From positions 248,001-312,000 of the forward strand of contig CAIJNL010000002.1 of NCBI GenBank assembly GCA_903822005.1: a stretch of 64,000 nt of DNA. Direction: 5' to 3'. The stretch comes from an uncultured Nitrospiraceae bacterium. Its GTDB lineage: Bacteria; Nitrospirota; Thermodesulfovibrionia; Thermodesulfovibrionales; Dissulfurispiraceae. Below the pieces are notes generated by a model, which was not told the origin of the DNA, searched no databases, and saw only the letters and a list, made by a program, of their open reading frames with translations. The first letter of the stretch is position 1, and each line of letters begins with the position of its first letter. Made by a program: the position numbers and the translations under genes. This document shows positions 4,261 to 60,189 of this stretch, piece after piece.

Positions 4261-6537
4261 ATGGATCATCATATTGATTTTGTCGAGCACGGTTATTGTC
4301 TGTTGTGGGAGCCGGAACTGGTATTGACGCATGTGCTGTCTGACATCCTTACCGGGCTGGCTTATTATTCGATCGCCTTTGCACTCTTCTACTTTGCTTA
4401 CAAGAGACGCGACCTGCCTTTCCTGAAGATATTTTATTTATTCGGCATCTTCATACTTGCCTGCGGCACCACCCACCTGTTTGGCGCATTTACCATATAT
4501 GTACCAGCATACTGGGAAGAGGGAATCGTCAAGGCATTTACGGCAATCGTTTCGGTCATTTCAGCAATCCTGTTTATACCGTTAATACCAAAGGCCATTG
4601 CGATGCCGAGTCTGACCCGGGCGCTGGAAGAGACCCGTGAATCAGAACAGAAATTCAGGACCCTCTTTGATAACAACACAGACGGTCTTATTATGGCGGA
4701 CATCGAAAGCAGGCAGTTCATGCTTGTCAACCGTACTATCTGCGCAATGCTGGGATACAGCGAGGATGAGCTGAAAAAACTCACTGTCGCGGACATCCAT
4801 CCTGATTATGCTGTTCCGCAAATTCTGAAGGATTTTGAAAAGCAGGCAAGAAAAGAGATAACAAGTGTTGAAGTCCCTGTGAAAAGAAAAGATGGGTCTG
4901 TCTTTTTTGCCGAGATTAGCGCATCGTTTTTCACTTCAGGCGGCAGGGAATATCTTTTAGGGGCCTTCAGGGACATCACCTTGAGGAAGCAGATCGAAGA
5001 TGCCCTCAGGGAAAGCGAAGCCAATTACCGGTCGCTGGTCAACAATGTGAACATCGGGGTCTTTAGAACCAGCACCGTCCAGGATAGTTTTCTCCAGGCA
5101 AACCCGGCCATGGTAAAAATATTCGGCTATGATTCAATAGAGGAGTTCAAAAGGGTCAACGTGACTGCCTTGTACCTGGACTCTGAATACAGAAAATTCG
5201 TTATTGCCGAAGTGAAACGAAAAGGTTTTGTAAAGGACGTAGAAGTGTCCCTGCAGAGAAAAGACGGGACGCCCATTTGGTGTTCCATAACGGCAACAGC
5301 TCAATTTGACGAGACTGGTGAGTTTAAATGGATAGATGGTGTTCTTGAAGATATAACCGGATGGAAAAAGGCCGAGGAAGAGAAAAAGCACCTTGAGACA
5401 CAACTTTTAAATTCGCAAAAGATGGAAGCCTTGGGTCAATTGGCGGGAGGTGTTGCTCATGATTTCAATAATGTGCTCAGCGCCATAATGGGGTATGCAA
5501 CTCTGAGCCAGATGACGCTGAAGGATAAAGACCCTGCCATGGAATATCTAAATGAAATTCTCGTTTCTACAAACAGGGCCTCTGACCTTACGCGAAGCCT
5601 TCTCGCGTTCAGCAGAAAACAGGCCATTAATGTAAAACCGATCAACCTTAATGATACTATTCGCGTCGCAGGGAAACTGCTCGGACAGCTTTTGGGAGAA
5701 GACATACTGCTTACCATGGCGCTTTCCGAACAGGATATTGTAATTATGGCCGACACCGGACAGATTGAACAGGTGGTGATAAACCTGGCAACGAACGCAC
5801 GGGATGCGATGCCTGGAGGAGGGACCCTTACCCTAAGTACACAGCAAATCGAAATGGATGCCGAATTCATAAGACTCCATGGTTATGGAGAAGAAGGTAA
5901 ATATGCCCTCATTTCAATAGAGGATTCAGGGACAGGTATCGACGAACAGACAAGAGAGAAAATATTCGAGCCTTTTTTTACGACCAAGGATGTGGGCAAG
6001 GGGACCGGCCTCGGGCTTTCAATCGTCTATGGGATCATAAAACAGCACCACGGCTATGTCGATGTGTATAGTGAAGTCGGAAAAGGCACTAATTTCAGGA
6101 TATATCTTCCCTCAAGAGACTTAAAGACAGCTGATTTACCTGCACCTGAATATATTCCGTTGCAGGGCGGCACTGAAACAGTGCTCATGGTGGAGGATGA
6201 AAAGGCATTGAGAAAAGCCTCCCGAACTCTGCTTGAGAAGTACGGGTACACGGTCATCGAAGCGGAAGACGGGATCGATGCGGTAAACAAGTTCAGGGAA
6301 CATAAGGACGCTATAGCCCTGGTACTTATGGATGTAATAATGCCCAGAAAAAACGGCAAGGAAGCATACCAGGAAATTCTTGCCATTAAGCCCGATGCCC
6401 GCGCGATATTCCTGAGCGGATACATGAGTGATGAAATAACGGATAAAATAGTTGCTGAAGGCTGGGAATTATTATCAAAACCTGTTTCTCCGAAAGACCT
6501 GTTTGTTAAAATCAGGGCAATGCTTGATAAAGAGTAA
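4261..6537 (+). CDS. Hybrid histidine kinase with ethylene-receptor-like sensor domain
   Basis: A 758-residue membrane sensor. Residues 1-115 form three membrane spans that match the ethylene-binding domain of plant ETR1 and cyanobacterial Etr1: [12 protein letters not shown], then [13 protein letters not shown]. The copper ligands C65 and H69 of ETR1 correspond to C68 and H72, and the essential D25 and Y32 to D28 and Y35, all at the same offset of three. Two PAS domains follow (about 128-245 and 250-370). The kinase core has phospho-acceptor His near residue 400 (GGVAHDFNN), an N box near 507 and G box DSGTGI near 558. A C-terminal receiver (from about 640) has Asp near 690 in LVLMDVIMP and Lys in LLSKPVSP. 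It stands alone, without an adjacent output gene. Architecture is certain; the ligand is inferred. Confidence 0.9.
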
Positions 6538-11570: not shown

Positions 11571-12269
11571 ATGATTAAAACAACAGTGAAGATAGAATTG
11601 CCTCAATCCACATTTGAAACGTGGCAGGGCATAGTCGATATTCTGGCCGAAATAGTCGGGATCCCGGCTGCATTGATCATGAGGTTAAATGAGCCTTATA
11701 TCGAAGTATTTGTTTCCAGCAAGAGCAATGGAAACCCTTACAATCCGGGGGACAGGGAGCACATCTGGGGTTCCGGACTGTATTGCGAGACCGTGATCAA
11801 GTCCGAAGACAGACTGCTTGTTCCCAATGCGTTGACCGATGTTAACTGGATGAATAATCCTGATGTCAAGTTGAACATGATCTCGTATCTGGGCTTCCCT
11901 ATTCTTCTGCCGGATGGAAAAACATTTGGAACAATTTGTGTACTCGACCGCAAAGAAAATCGATATTCGAAAACGGTCGAGGATTTAATATTGAAATTCC
12001 GCCATATAATCCAGACAGATCTTGAACTCGTCTATCTGAACCAGTCGCTGGGCGATAAGAATAAGCGCTTAATGGATTATTTGACGGAACTCCAGGCATT
12101 GAGGGGAGTTGTTCCCATCTGCGCATACTGCAAAAGCATCAGGGACAGTCAGAATAACTGGCATCCCATTGAGCACTATCTGATCAAAAATCCGCAGGCA
12201 GATTTCAGTCATGGAATCTGCCCCGTTTGTATGAAAAAAAACCATCCTGAATTGGAAGATAAACCTTAA
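11571..12269 (+). CDS. GAF-domain sensory protein with C-terminal Cys cluster
   Basis: A 232-residue soluble protein. Residues ~15-155 form a GAF domain, with the typical GSGLYCETVIKSEDRLLVPNA and YLGFPILLPDGKTFGTICVLD stretches; GAF domains bind small ligands or chromophores. A short linker helix leads to a conserved tail (LQALRGVVPICAYCKSIRD, then FSHGICPVCMKK) often attached to bacterial sensor proteins. It has two CxxC pairs that could bind metal. There is no kinase, cyclase or DNA-binding output domain, so it probably acts through a partner. AGAGGGCTGAAAG precedes the ATG. It shares a bidirectional terminator with convergent ftsH. Confidence 0.8.
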   Translation: MIKTTVKIELPQSTFETWQGIVDILAEIVGIPAALIMRLNEPYIEVFVSSKSNGNPYNPGDREHIWGSGLYCETVIKSEDRLLVPNALTDVNWMNNPDVKLNMISYLGFPILLPDGKTFGTICVLDRKENRYSKTVEDLILKFRHIIQTDLELVYLNQSLGDKNKRLMDYLTELQALRGVVPICAYCKSIRDSQNNWHPIEHYLIKNPQADFSHGICPVCMKKNHPELEDKP

Positions 12270-52384: not shown

Positions 52385-53278
52385 CTATAGCCCGATCAGC
52401 TTCATGCTCAATTCCCAAAGCCGTCTGCGGGCATCCCTGTTATGGGCCTGGGGATTGGGCTCCGCAACCTTCTTTCCATCGAAATATTTTCCAGTGACAC
52501 CTTCGAGGGCAGGAGAGATTGCCAGATACTCAACGGCCTTTGCTCCCTCCTCCACCGTACTTGCAGGGATGTCGAAAAACGGCGAGTCATATACCAGCTT
52601 TGTGTTCATAAGGGTGGCCGGGTGTATGCAATTGACCGTAACGCCGCTTCCCTTGAGTTCCCTTGCCATGTCGATGGTAAACATTACCTGCGCGAGTTTG
52701 CTCTGCTGGTAAGCATGCCAGTCGTCGTAGTCATTTTCGAGCATCACATCCCCGAAATCTATCGATTGCTGACCGGCCGAGGCGACATTGATAATCCTGG
52801 AAGGCGCCGCCCTCTTCAGCAGCGGCAGCAACCTGAAGGTGAGCAGAACGTGGGACAGATAATTGACCGCAAAACGGAGTTCATGGCCTTCGGAACTCAC
52901 CTCGCGCTTCGCCTCAAGGGTCCGCACGCCGATACCGGCGTTATTGATCAGAACGTCAATCTGTTGATGATCAGCCAGAATTTGGTCCGCCATTTCGCGG
53001 ACATCACTGAGCGAGGCAAAGTCAGCATTAAAATATCTGAGGTTCTGGTTGCCTGTCTTCTCCATGAGTTCAAGTCTGGCAGCTTCTCCTTTATCCATAT
53101 TACGGCCATGCAGCAGTACAGTTGCCTGCTGCTCAGCAAAATAGCTGGCAACTTCTTTTCCGAGCCCGTCGGTCGCCCCGGTCACAAGGATTATTTTATT
53201 GCTGAATGCCTTCATGTCCTGCATATTCGTCAATGTATCACATTCATTCTGAAATTTATCCCGGTTATGCCGCATCAT
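52385..53278 (-). CDS. Short-chain dehydrogenase/reductase
   Basis: A 297-residue NAD(P)-dependent oxidoreductase. Cofactor motif is TGATDGLG near residue 35, NNAG near 112, catalytic Ser in INVASAG and Tyr-Lys in YQQSKLA. The sequence resembles the retinol dehydrogenase/WW-oxidoreductase-like SDR group by its long C-terminal part (CIHPATLMNTKLV, then GKYFDGKKV). The ATG overlaps the stop of the histidine kinase gene (ATGA); a shorter form starting at MKAFSNK, 22 codons in, would be the more usual length. Substrate unknown. Confidence 0.85.
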   Translation of the reverse strand: MMRHNRDKFQNECDTLTNMQDMKAFSNKIILVTGATDGLGKEVASYFAEQQATVLLHGRNMDKGEAARLELMEKTGNQNLRYFNADFASLSDVREMADQILADHQQIDVLINNAGIGVRTLEAKREVSSEGHELRFAVNYLSHVLLTFRLLPLLKRAAPSRIINVASAGQQSIDFGDVMLENDYDDWHAYQQSKLAQVMFTIDMARELKGSGVTVNCIHPATLMNTKLVYDSPFFDIPASTVEEGAKAVEYLAISPALEGVTGKYFDGKKVAEPNPQAHNRDARRRLWELSMKLIGL

Positions 53279-54744
53279 CCGCGGTCGATATTTTTTTCAT
53301 ATTCCTCTCTGGTCGGAAGCTTTATGATCACAGTCGTGCCGCCGGCAGGCGCGGCGAAAATGTCCATGACTCCCTGATGTTGCTGAATGATCCCGTGTGC
53401 AACGCAAAGGCCCAGTCCCGCGTTCTGGCTGATTTCCTTAGTGGTAAAAAACGGGTCGAATACGCACGGTAAATTTTCTTTCGAAATCCCAGACCCGGTG
53501 TCGGTAACAGATACCTGCACCATATCATTTTTCTGAACGGTATAAATTCGCATCCTGCCGCCTTTCGGCATGGCCTCCACTGAATTAGTCAAAACGTTGA
53601 CGAAGACCTGCGCGAGCTTGCCCTGGTCTCCCATGATATTCTGAACGGGCACGTCGTTTCTTTCGAGGACAATGTCCTTCATTTTATGCTCAAGAAGCTT
53701 CAGTGCAGCTTCAACGACACTGTTGATGTTTACAGGCACAAAGTTTTCGCCTTCCCTGCGGTAAGACTGGAGGAGTTCTCCAGCAATCACTGACGCATGA
53801 GCGATGTTCTTTTCAACCGCCTCGATCTGTTTTGTCACCGCGTCAGGCGCAACACACCCACCTGTCAGGCTTTTCTTCAGCATCTTGATGCCTTGTGAGG
53901 CATCCGTCAACGGATGACCGATCTCATGCGAGATGCCCGCCGCAAGACGGCCCAGCGACGACAGTTTCTCCGACTGGACGAGGATTCTGGTCTGCTGCTC
54001 GATTTTTTGTCTCATCTCGATGTTGAAAATATTCAATGCCTTAAGAATAAAAAAGGTTATAAAAACAGCCGCCAGCCCGCGCAGGAACGACGCGATCAGG
54101 TGCAGGTCAAACGATGTAGTCTGGAAAACAAATATCCCGCCGAAAATGCCGTAAAAAGTGAACGCCGCACCGGCGTAAAAGAAATTCACCGAAACGGCCC
54201 TGCTCAGATTTTTTGTCTGGTTTGCATAGGTGATCAGGCCATACGCGGTTGTAAGTCCGGCCATAGGCCCGAGGGTATATCTTATACCAACCTCAACATG
54301 CCAGAGGAACAGCATGTCCACATGTGATCCTTGCGCCCAGATAAAGGCAGCCAGCCCGAAAACAGCAACAAAGAGGACCGCCCTGATCCGTTTCATTTGC
54401 CTTTCATCGAAAGTGCTGAGCAGCGAGAGTCCAAACTGCAGGAGAAAATATAATGAAAAAATAAGCAGATAAAGCAGAATCATCCTTACAAGATAGATTT
54501 CCTGCAGCGATAACTGCTCACCCCGGATCAGGGGGTAGACGTCGAGCCATTCGTGGGCTCCGTATAAAAACCCGAAGACTCCGAGCATCCAGAGACCGTT
54601 TGCGAGTTTAAGGTCGCTCCCTTTCATGTTTGTCACGGAAATGGAAACGCCGAGAAAAAGGAACGAGGCCCCATAAAAAAAATAAAGCGGGTACTCTATG
54701 GGAATGCCGGATAAAAGATTATAGAGGGCCATCAGCGTCGTCAT
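53275..54744 (-). CDS. Multi-span membrane histidine kinase
   Basis: A 489-residue sensor kinase. The first ~235 residues hold seven or so membrane spans (IEYPLYFFYGASFLFLGV, LVRMILLYLLIFSLYFLLQF and others) with short loops, so the signal may be sensed within the membrane. The kinase core has His near residue 271 in AAGISHEIGHP, N box VFVNVLTNSVEAM, and ATP motifs DTGSGIS and AGLGLCVAHG. No response regulator gene is adjacent. It follows the triheme cytochrome gene by 44 bases and overlaps the SDR gene by four, suggesting that a redox state could be the signal. Confidence 0.85.
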   Translation of the reverse strand: MTTLMALYNLLSGIPIEYPLYFFYGASFLFLGVSISVTNMKGSDLKLANGLWMLGVFGFLYGAHEWLDVYPLIRGEQLSLQEIYLVRMILLYLLIFSLYFLLQFGLSLLSTFDERQMKRIRAVLFVAVFGLAAFIWAQGSHVDMLFLWHVEVGIRYTLGPMAGLTTAYGLITYANQTKNLSRAVSVNFFYAGAAFTFYGIFGGIFVFQTTSFDLHLIASFLRGLAAVFITFFILKALNIFNIEMRQKIEQQTRILVQSEKLSSLGRLAAGISHEIGHPLTDASQGIKMLKKSLTGGCVAPDAVTKQIEAVEKNIAHASVIAGELLQSYRREGENFVPVNINSVVEAALKLLEHKMKDIVLERNDVPVQNIMGDQGKLAQVFVNVLTNSVEAMPKGGRMRIYTVQKNDMVQVSVTDTGSGISKENLPCVFDPFFTTKEISQNAGLGLCVAHGIIQQHQGVMDIFAAPAGGTTVIIKLPTREEYEKNIDRG

Positions 54745-54758
54745 GTACAATGTCCCAT
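54741..54758 (-). other. Five-codon ORF coupled to the kinase start
   Basis: GGGAGG is placed six bases before an ATG at 54758 that opens a five-codon frame (MGHCT). Its TGA overlaps the kinase ATG at 54744 (ATGA). The kinase ATG itself lies about 20 bases from that ribosome site, further than usual. The arrangement suggests that the kinase may be translated by re-initiation. Confidence 0.35.
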
Positions 54759-57658: not shown

Positions 57659-57723
57659 TCTGTAGCTTCTTCTCTTCATGCTCATCCTTGCACCTATACA
57701 CTCCTTATGAATACAATGACAGT

Positions 57724-60189
57724 ATGATTACAAGAATCGATATACCTGTAACCGGAATGACCTGTGCGGCATGTTCTGCTGCATTGGAACGGGCTATTCA
57801 GAAGCTGGATGGCGTGAAGAGCGCTGCCGTTAACCTTCCCCTTGAACGCGCTACTGTTGAATTCATTGATCCTAAAGTTCCTATACCTATAACCGCTGTC
57901 ATCGACAAAGTAAGAGATGAAGGGTTTAATGTTGTGACCATAAAACTGGATATTGCTGTTGGCGGCATGACCTGCTCTGCCTGCGTAAGCGCGGTCGAGC
58001 GGGCGCTGAAAGCCGTTTATGGTGTTCTCAATGCCACTGTCAACCTTGCAACCGAAAAGGCATCTGTCGAGTATGTCCCTACCATTACAGGCTTCGAGGA
58101 CTTCAAAAAGGCGATAGAGGAAGCCGGATATTCCGCCCATATAGTAACAAAGGAATTTGTCGATACCGAACGCGAGGCGCGCGAAAAAGAATATGCCAAA
58201 TTGAAAAAGCATCTCATCATCAGCGCCCTACTCGCAGGCCTGATAATGATCGGCAGCATGTTTGATCTTCCTGTAATCTCGAACTGGATAACATTGCTTG
58301 TCCTCGCAACTCCCGTTCAGTTCTGGGTAGGCATGAGATTTCACAGGGCCGCCCTGTCAGCAATCAGGCATGGCGGAGTGAATATGAACACCCTCATCAG
58401 CGTGGGCACCAATGCCGCTTATTTTTACAGCGTGGCCGCTACCATTAATCCGCAGCTATTTACAGCCGGGGACATTGCCCCGCATGTTTACTTCGATACC
58501 TCTGCCACCATCGTAACCCTGATACTTTTAGGCAGACTGCTCGAAGCAGGCGCAAAGGGCAAGACGTCAGACGCGATAAGAAAACTTATGAAACTCCAGC
58601 CCACGACCGCGACTGTTGTGAGAGGTGATATTGAACAGGAGATAAATATCGACGAGGTCGTTATCGGCGATATCGTAATCGTCCGGCCAGGAGAGCGCAT
58701 TGCTGTCGACGGCGTGGTAGTTGACGGTCTTTCAGCTGTTGATGAATCAATGCTCACGGGCGAAAGCCTGCCTGTCGAAAAGGAGCCGGACAGCATGGTC
58801 TTCGGCGGTACGGTTAACAGCGCTGGAAGCCTCAGGTTCAGGACAACACGGGTCGGCAGCAATACATCGCTCTCGCGAATAATCAAACTCGTTCAGGACG
58901 CGCAGGGCAGCAAAGCCCCTATTCAGCGGCTTGCAGACAAGATAGCCTCGGTCTTTGTCCCTGTTGTAATCGGGATAGCGGCGCTTACATTCTCACTATG
59001 GCTCATCTTCGGCCCGCAGCATTCATTCACGCTCGCCCTGATGAATTTCATAGCCGTGCTGATCATAGCCTGTCCCTGCGCACTCGGACTGGCGACCCCG
59101 ACAGCAATTATGGTGGGCACCGGAAAGGGCGCTCAGATGGGCATACTGATAAGAGACGCAGCAGCGCTTGAGCAATGCCACAGGATAAACACCATCATCC
59201 TCGATAAAACAGGCACCATTACAAAGGGAGAGCCTGAGGTGACCGATATAATCGAATTCAGCAGGCAAGGGTCGCAAGCAGGGATACGGAAGACCAATAA
59301 TTTCGATCTGGATGTTCTGAGCCTTGCCGCGTCAGCAGAGAAGCCCTCAGAGCACCCTCTTGCAAAAGCCATTGTACGGAAGGCCGAATCTGAGGGCATT
59401 ACTACGATTGACGCCAAATCATTTCTTGTCTCTCCAGGCGGAGGAGTCAAGGCAGTGATTGCAAAGGGTGATGTTGAACAGGAAGTGATAATCGGCAATG
59501 AACGCTTCATGGCTGAGAATAAAACAAACCTTTCAGCTGCCTCGGAATATTCTGCACTTGTTTTCTCGGAAGGTAAGTCGCCTGTCTACATGGCCGTTGA
59601 TAAAAGACTCGCCGCCATTTTCGCGATAGCCGACAGCGTGAAGGAAGATTCGGGCCGCGCCATAGCCCGGCTCATGAGCATGAATATCGAAGTCATCATG
59701 CTGACCGGAGATCATAAAAATACCGCTGAGACCATTGCCCGCAAGGTCGGCATCACAAGGTACTTTTCGGACGTGCTGCCTGACAAAAAGACCGCTATAG
59801 TGAAGCAGATAATGGCAGAGGGAAAGATCACTGCCATGGTTGGCGACGGGCTGAACGACGCCCCTGCACTTGCTTCCGCTGATGTAGGCATAGCAATCGG
59901 CACAGGCACAGACATAGCGATAGAGGCCTCTGACATAACACTCATCAAGGGCAGCCTTATGTCGCTGGTCGACGCTATACAACTGAGCAGGCTCACCATC
60001 AATACCATAAGACAGAACCTGTTCTGGGCCTTTATATACAACATCATCGGCATCCCGGTTGCAGCTGGAATCCTGTATATATTCGGCGGTCCGATGCTAA
60101 ACCCCATGATAGCATCGGCAGCCATGTCCTTAAGCTCAGTGTCTGTGGTCGCCAACTCTCTCACGCTCCGCGGGAAGAAACTGCAGTGA
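57724..60189 (+). CDS. copA: Copper-exporting P1B-type ATPase
   Basis: An 821-residue inner-membrane ATPase that pumps Cu(I) from the cytosol. Two N-terminal metal-binding domains carry GMTCAAC near residue 12 and GMTCSAC near 81. The membrane metal site is CPC in [12 protein letters not shown] near 449. Cytosolic signatures are TGES, DKTGT (Asp phosphorylated, near 494), [18 protein letters not shown] near 660 and [11 protein letters not shown] near 707. The start ATG opens [11 protein letters not shown]; an upstream in-frame TTG is unlikely. No copper chaperone or regulator is adjacent. Confidence 0.95.

Follow-up and report, generated by a model that had tools for sequence, protein, structure and literature searches.

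A hybrid histidine kinase of an uncultured Nitrospiraceae bacterium with an ethylene-receptor-type input domain that keeps the putative copper ligands and lacks proline 36

Bacterial receptors that demonstrably bind ethylene are known from very few species, mainly cyanobacteria and Azospirillum. The locus described here lies outside these groups, and it raises the question whether a bacterial hybrid kinase with an input domain of the plant ethylene-receptor type may sense ethylene, or another small ligand, through copper. The gene occupies positions 4261–6537 on the plus strand of the window, that is the whole stretch of 64,000 nucleotides that was analysed, and encodes a protein of 758 amino acids. 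The open reading frame, its translation and the Pfam matches give the domain order ETR1_N-PAS-PAS-HisKA-HATPase-REC, all on the same strand. The input domain (aa 1–114; 4261–4602) is followed by two PAS domains (aa 131–239, 4651–4977; and aa 274–366, 5080–5358, matched by PAS_9), by HisKA (5431–5625) with the phospho-acceptor His400 in the motif AGGVAHDF, by HATPase_c (5752–6114) and by a receiver (Response_reg; 6181–6513) with Asp691 in the motif LMDVIMP. The kinase and receiver motifs are intact, including the H, N, G1, F and G2 boxes and the receiver aspartate.

The family of the input domain is given by the Pfam profile ETR1_N (PF25487), which matches residues 20–114 with 112.6 bits (E = 1.1e-32); since the curated cut-off is 27 bits, a chance match is excluded. 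The preliminary description had left room for an unrelated membrane family to match better, but when the N-terminal domain was scanned alone, ETR1_N was the sole family matched. Hydropathy and AlphaFold2 both indicate three N-terminal transmembrane helices, as in the ETR1_N family, and in the AlphaFold2 model, a monomer predicted with 18 sequences, they span residues 18–48, 55–78 and 84–114 (mean pLDDT 89, pTM 0.74; an earlier run with three sequences was poor, with pLDDT 62). No credible match was found in the PDB when it was searched by sequence with the input domain and with a profile of 14 relatives, and a Foldseek comparison of the domain model with the PDB gave no solved structure at E ≤ 0.001. 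That Cys68 and His72 should face each other in the helix bundle is a weak test, because these residues stand at i and i+4 on helix 2, hence on the same face whatever the fold, and the outcome is nearly guaranteed. The invariant residues F61, F64, I65, C68, G69 and H72 form one arc of helix 2 at 100 degrees per residue. Nor is a predicted overlay decisive, since AlphaFold and EPR data conflict on the helix packing of ETR1 (reviewed in PMC13012798). Judged by its sequence, the input domain is truly related to the copper-using input domain of the plant ethylene receptor. The ETR1_N family and its scatter among bacteria are already known, and the discovery in itself is modest.

The residues of the copper and ethylene site were read from alignments with Arabidopsis ETR1, whose numbering was verified on the published residues C4, C6, D25, Y32, I35, P36, I62, C65 and H69. 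It had been claimed that all ETR1 residues tied to copper and ethylene binding are present. The five residues listed in support of this claim do occur at an offset of +3, namely Asp28 (ETR1 Asp25; 4342–4344), Tyr35 (Tyr32; 4363–4365), Ile65 (Ile62; 4453–4455), Cys68 (Cys65; 4462–4464) and His72 (His69; 4474–4476), all on the plus strand as are the codons that follow, and Ile38 (Ile35; 4372–4374), absent from that list, is kept as well. The word "all", however, does not hold, for six of the seven residues required in ETR1 are present and the seventh, Pro36, is replaced by Ala39 (GCC codon, 4375–4377), a substitution that the same description had recognised and that is confirmed here at the same offset. 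The window protein thus retains the pair that corresponds to the copper ligands of ETR1, Cys68 and His72 being copper ligands by homology, and lacks the complete set of seven that marks a functional ethylene receptor. Helix 3 carries Lys91 (4531–4533), which aligns with a conserved lysine proposed to form a salt bridge with the aspartate (PMC13012798). According to the AzoEtr1 paper, the seven residues were defined by alanine-scanning mutagenesis of ETR1 (PMC11819568), and for that reason Ala39 bears directly on ethylene binding; the effect of P36A is taken second-hand, through this paper rather than from the original mutagenesis source. Reports on the characterised receptors give proline at position 36 (PMC11819568, PMC6682694).

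Is the protein, then, a true ethylene receptor, in whose background Ala39 is tolerated with a useful affinity for ethylene? Every other required residue is kept, the domain of AzoEtr1 is 54% identical, and sister proteins of the same clade and architecture have the proline together with the remaining six residues, as does L066, which shares both the family and the domain order of the window protein. On the other side, alanine at position 36 is a change of the type recorded as binding loss in ETR1, at least as the AzoEtr1 paper relates it, and the neighbourhood is without evident ethylene physiology. Such a receptor is conceivable, although we would sooner expect otherwise.

How freely position 36 varies was read from an alignment of the window domain, 32 other bacterial domains and Arabidopsis ETR1, in which two loci (L047 and L032) hold one and the same gene, leaving 32 distinct bacterial domains, the window's included. 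Proline was found in 23 of them. The other nine have alanine (the window, L064 and L040), threonine (L063 and L065), serine (L072, L074 and L075) or valine (L078). Cysteine and histidine are kept in 31 of the 32 domains, and the eight with alanine, threonine or serine all retain Asp, Tyr, Cys and His. So far as this sample reaches, Pro36 tolerates change in nature and the copper ligands do not, which implies either that the pocket has been retuned or that proteins outside plants depend less on Pro36. The former would make the window protein a copper sensor with its Cu(I) site kept and directed to another ligand (a different olefin, acetylene or CO) or to a membrane Cu(I) or redox readout. The eight substituted domains are in its favour, as are phage relatives that vary at position 36 (P, G or S) and keep Cys and His; its ligand is, however, purely hypothetical, and by the topology and support values of the maximum-likelihood tree the substituted proteins form no single clade apart from the proline-bearing ones. 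In the clade to which the window protein belongs, 4 of 11 members lack Pro36. We regard this retuning as unlikely. The more general proposal, a natural branch of ethylene-receptor-type sensors that has kept the Cu(I) site, lost the proline and taken a non-ethylene ligand (an unsaturated gas, CO or Cu(I)), appears more unlikely still; if true, it would show the ETR1_N input to be a general copper-based gas sensor.

The exception among the 32 domains, L078 (G361:C5:28695-28982), has N, F, V and Q at the Asp, Tyr, Cys and His positions, and this ETR1_N kinase is likely a copper-free descendant. Such a decayed homologue within the phylum lends some weight to the idea that the input domain of the window protein is itself decaying or blind to ligand, with the PAS domains driving the kinase and the membrane part serving as a mere anchor, and two PAS domains do stand between input and kinase. 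The copper-site residues of the window protein are, however, all intact, and because of this and of its 66–73% identity to three relatives of its clade the domain looks constrained. A blind input domain is therefore considered improbable.

The kinase is sparsely distributed. The ETR1_N cut-off is exceeded in 15 of 396 sampled genomes of the window's phylum and in 5 of 31 genomes of its family; since, in addition, a genome of the same genus (G294) gave no ETR1_N match, the kinase is not core to the lineage. Weak matches of 21–26 bits, seen in many genomes of the phylum, were set aside: they lie below the cut-off, which one further match clears only narrowly with 29 bits, and almost none of them reappeared when the domain of the window protein served as the query. 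The named genome collection yielded two relatives, 67% identical and both on contigs of metagenome-assembled genomes (MAGs) labelled Geobacter. The maximum-likelihood tree places the window protein in a supported set of 11 (98/99), in which relatives from the phylum are mixed with Geobacter MAGs, and this mixing suggests transfer between phyla, unless the Geobacter-labelled contigs are misbinned. Among plasmid-borne domains the closest come from Azospirillum (about 54% identity), and further matches were found in cyanobacteria, Novosphingobium, Rhodovastum, Rhizobium and Deinococcus. As read from the sequences, relatives fuse ETR1_N to PAS-HK-REC, HK-REC, a plain HK or GGDEF/EAL-like C-termini. 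By the same reading, the phylum also contains split receptors (L071:6077-6694, L073:6265-6867 and L077, near the middle of its contig), in which a kinase-free ETR1_N protein of about 200 aa adjoins a separate kinase-like gene of 600–880 aa and receiver genes.

The genomic context adds little on the ligand. The kinase gene stands alone, without informative neighbours: upstream, on the opposite strand, is a YajQ-like gene, and downstream a small one that encodes a TM2-like membrane protein (both named by reading the sequence). Among the window's reading frames and the loci of relatives no neighbour indicative of ethylene or copper was found, an operon shared with copper genes was sought and not found, and across the relatives' loci the window-type kinase has no conserved neighbour gene. 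Copper exporters are common. The CopA-type ATPase to which the preliminary description had drawn attention is indeed encoded in the window (57688–60189, plus strand), but at 53 kb from the kinase gene and with no shared neighbourhood its link to the sensor is uninformative. Two further putative sensors of the window may be recorded: a 232-aa protein (11571–12269, plus strand) that reads as GAF-like, has no kinase domain and carries a Cys-rich C-terminal part (CAYC...C...CPVC), and a second membrane histidine kinase of 491 aa with a multi-span N-terminus (53275–54750, minus strand). Elsewhere in the genome, four nitrogenase-family genes stand in a row, two of which share a reading frame (G000:C41:53410-58861). 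The cluster has the appearance of ordinary nifDKEN and the organism can probably fix N2; a methylthio-alkane reductase as a source of ethylene was dropped from consideration, the cluster resembling ordinary nifDKEN.

Taken together, the findings favour, as reasonably probable, a three-helix sensor that depends on Cu(I), responds to ethylene or some comparable π-acceptor and drives a phosphorelay. Its domain identity, conserved residues, intact motifs and three-helix fold are established here. Dependence on copper is likely, and ethylene as the physiological ligand is put forward only tentatively. The ethylene-receptor-type input of the preliminary description thus stands as to family, upheld by the profile, the identity to AzoEtr1, the copper ligands and the three-helix model, but ethylene sensing is not established; judged by this one required residue an ethylene receptor would not be predicted, and because of the natural Pro36-to-Ala change the affinity for ethylene is uncertain. 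In the proposed mechanism the hybrid kinase is anchored in the membrane and its input domain would, by homology, be dimeric. Each chain would hold one Cu(I), bound on helix 2 by Cys68 and His72, and Asp28 and Lys91 would lie close by. A small π-acceptor gas, ethylene or similar, would meet the copper and shift its coordination, and the occupied site may then alter autophosphorylation of His400. From His400 the phosphate would pass to the attached receiver, at Asp691, and from there, presumably, to an Hpt protein or response regulator encoded elsewhere, giving an output in trans. Hpt-domain matches in the genome number four, all outside the window and all within long reading frames (713–1233 aa).

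ETR1_N-like proteins also occur in viral genomes. A profile scan of IMG/VR found them at 16 loci on viral contigs (L083–L098), mostly as proteins of 120–175 residues without a kinase (e.g., L091:3956-4330), and all six that were checked pass the Pfam cut-off. The Tyr, Ile, Ile, Cys, Gly and His residues are kept in all 16, the residue at the place of Asp25 varies, Lys91 is found in one of the 16, and Pro, Gly or Ser stands at position 36. A GH108 endolysin and Rz/Rz1-like reading frames immediately precede the gene in L089–L093, and an endolysin-type gene follows it in L096 and L097. The cultured Maribacter phages Molly and Colly carry the domain (E = 1.5e-16) in a "hypothetical protein" of 289 aa, whose gene in Molly_1 (L099:3432-4301) stands directly upstream of one for N-acetylmuramoyl-L-alanine amidase. 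The top structural match of the window model in the viral library was a 289-residue protein (E = 2.6e-4) that, by its length, is probably this phage protein. Possibly the viral proteins act as copper-domain holins or in lysis timing, an idea only; no literature tying ethylene receptors to holins was found. Stand-alone phage ETR1_N proteins, several of them beside lysis genes, are more unusual than the kinase itself.

A member of the family from outside cyanobacteria and Azospirillum, with a natural change of Pro36, offers a direct test of the need for this proline, and equally of what copper domains sensed before their use in plants. Among known systems, AzoEtr1 of Azospirillum brasilense Sp7 is the one to which the window domain is 54% identical over 114 aa; the matching locus on plasmid ABSP7_p1 has a reading frame of 525 aa, the published length of AzoEtr1. 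Both proteins have the three helices and the Cys/His, Asp, Tyr, Ile, Ile and Lys residues. AzoEtr1 (ETR1_N-PAS-HK), however, has Pro36, one PAS domain and no attached receiver, a separate response-regulator gene adjoining it, whereas the window protein has Ala39, two PAS domains and a receiver of its own. Of the two, it is AzoEtr1 for which ethylene binding is demonstrated, its first 130 residues binding 14C-ethylene in yeast (PMC11819568). CckA-type hybrid kinases are alike in the HK-REC half and differ in the input; the NCBIfam CckA model matches aa 137–756 (E = 5e-117), but with 391.8 bits against an equivalog cut-off of 1000, and with a different input, identity with CckA is ruled out. In the cyanobacterial SynEtr1 and GeiEtr1/2, PAS or GAF kinases carry an input of this same three-helix family (PMC6682694); GeiEtr1/2 keep all seven residues, compared with six in the window protein, and SynEtr1 is, according to the literature on cyanobacterial receptors, additionally a UV-A light sensor. 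Plant ETR1 of Arabidopsis is 30% identical over the domain, has Pro36 and a GAF domain in place of Ala39 and PAS, and has two N-terminal cysteines, just one of which aligns in the window protein (Cys13); yet the two have six of the seven ethylene-binding residues in common, and both carry kinase and receiver in one chain.
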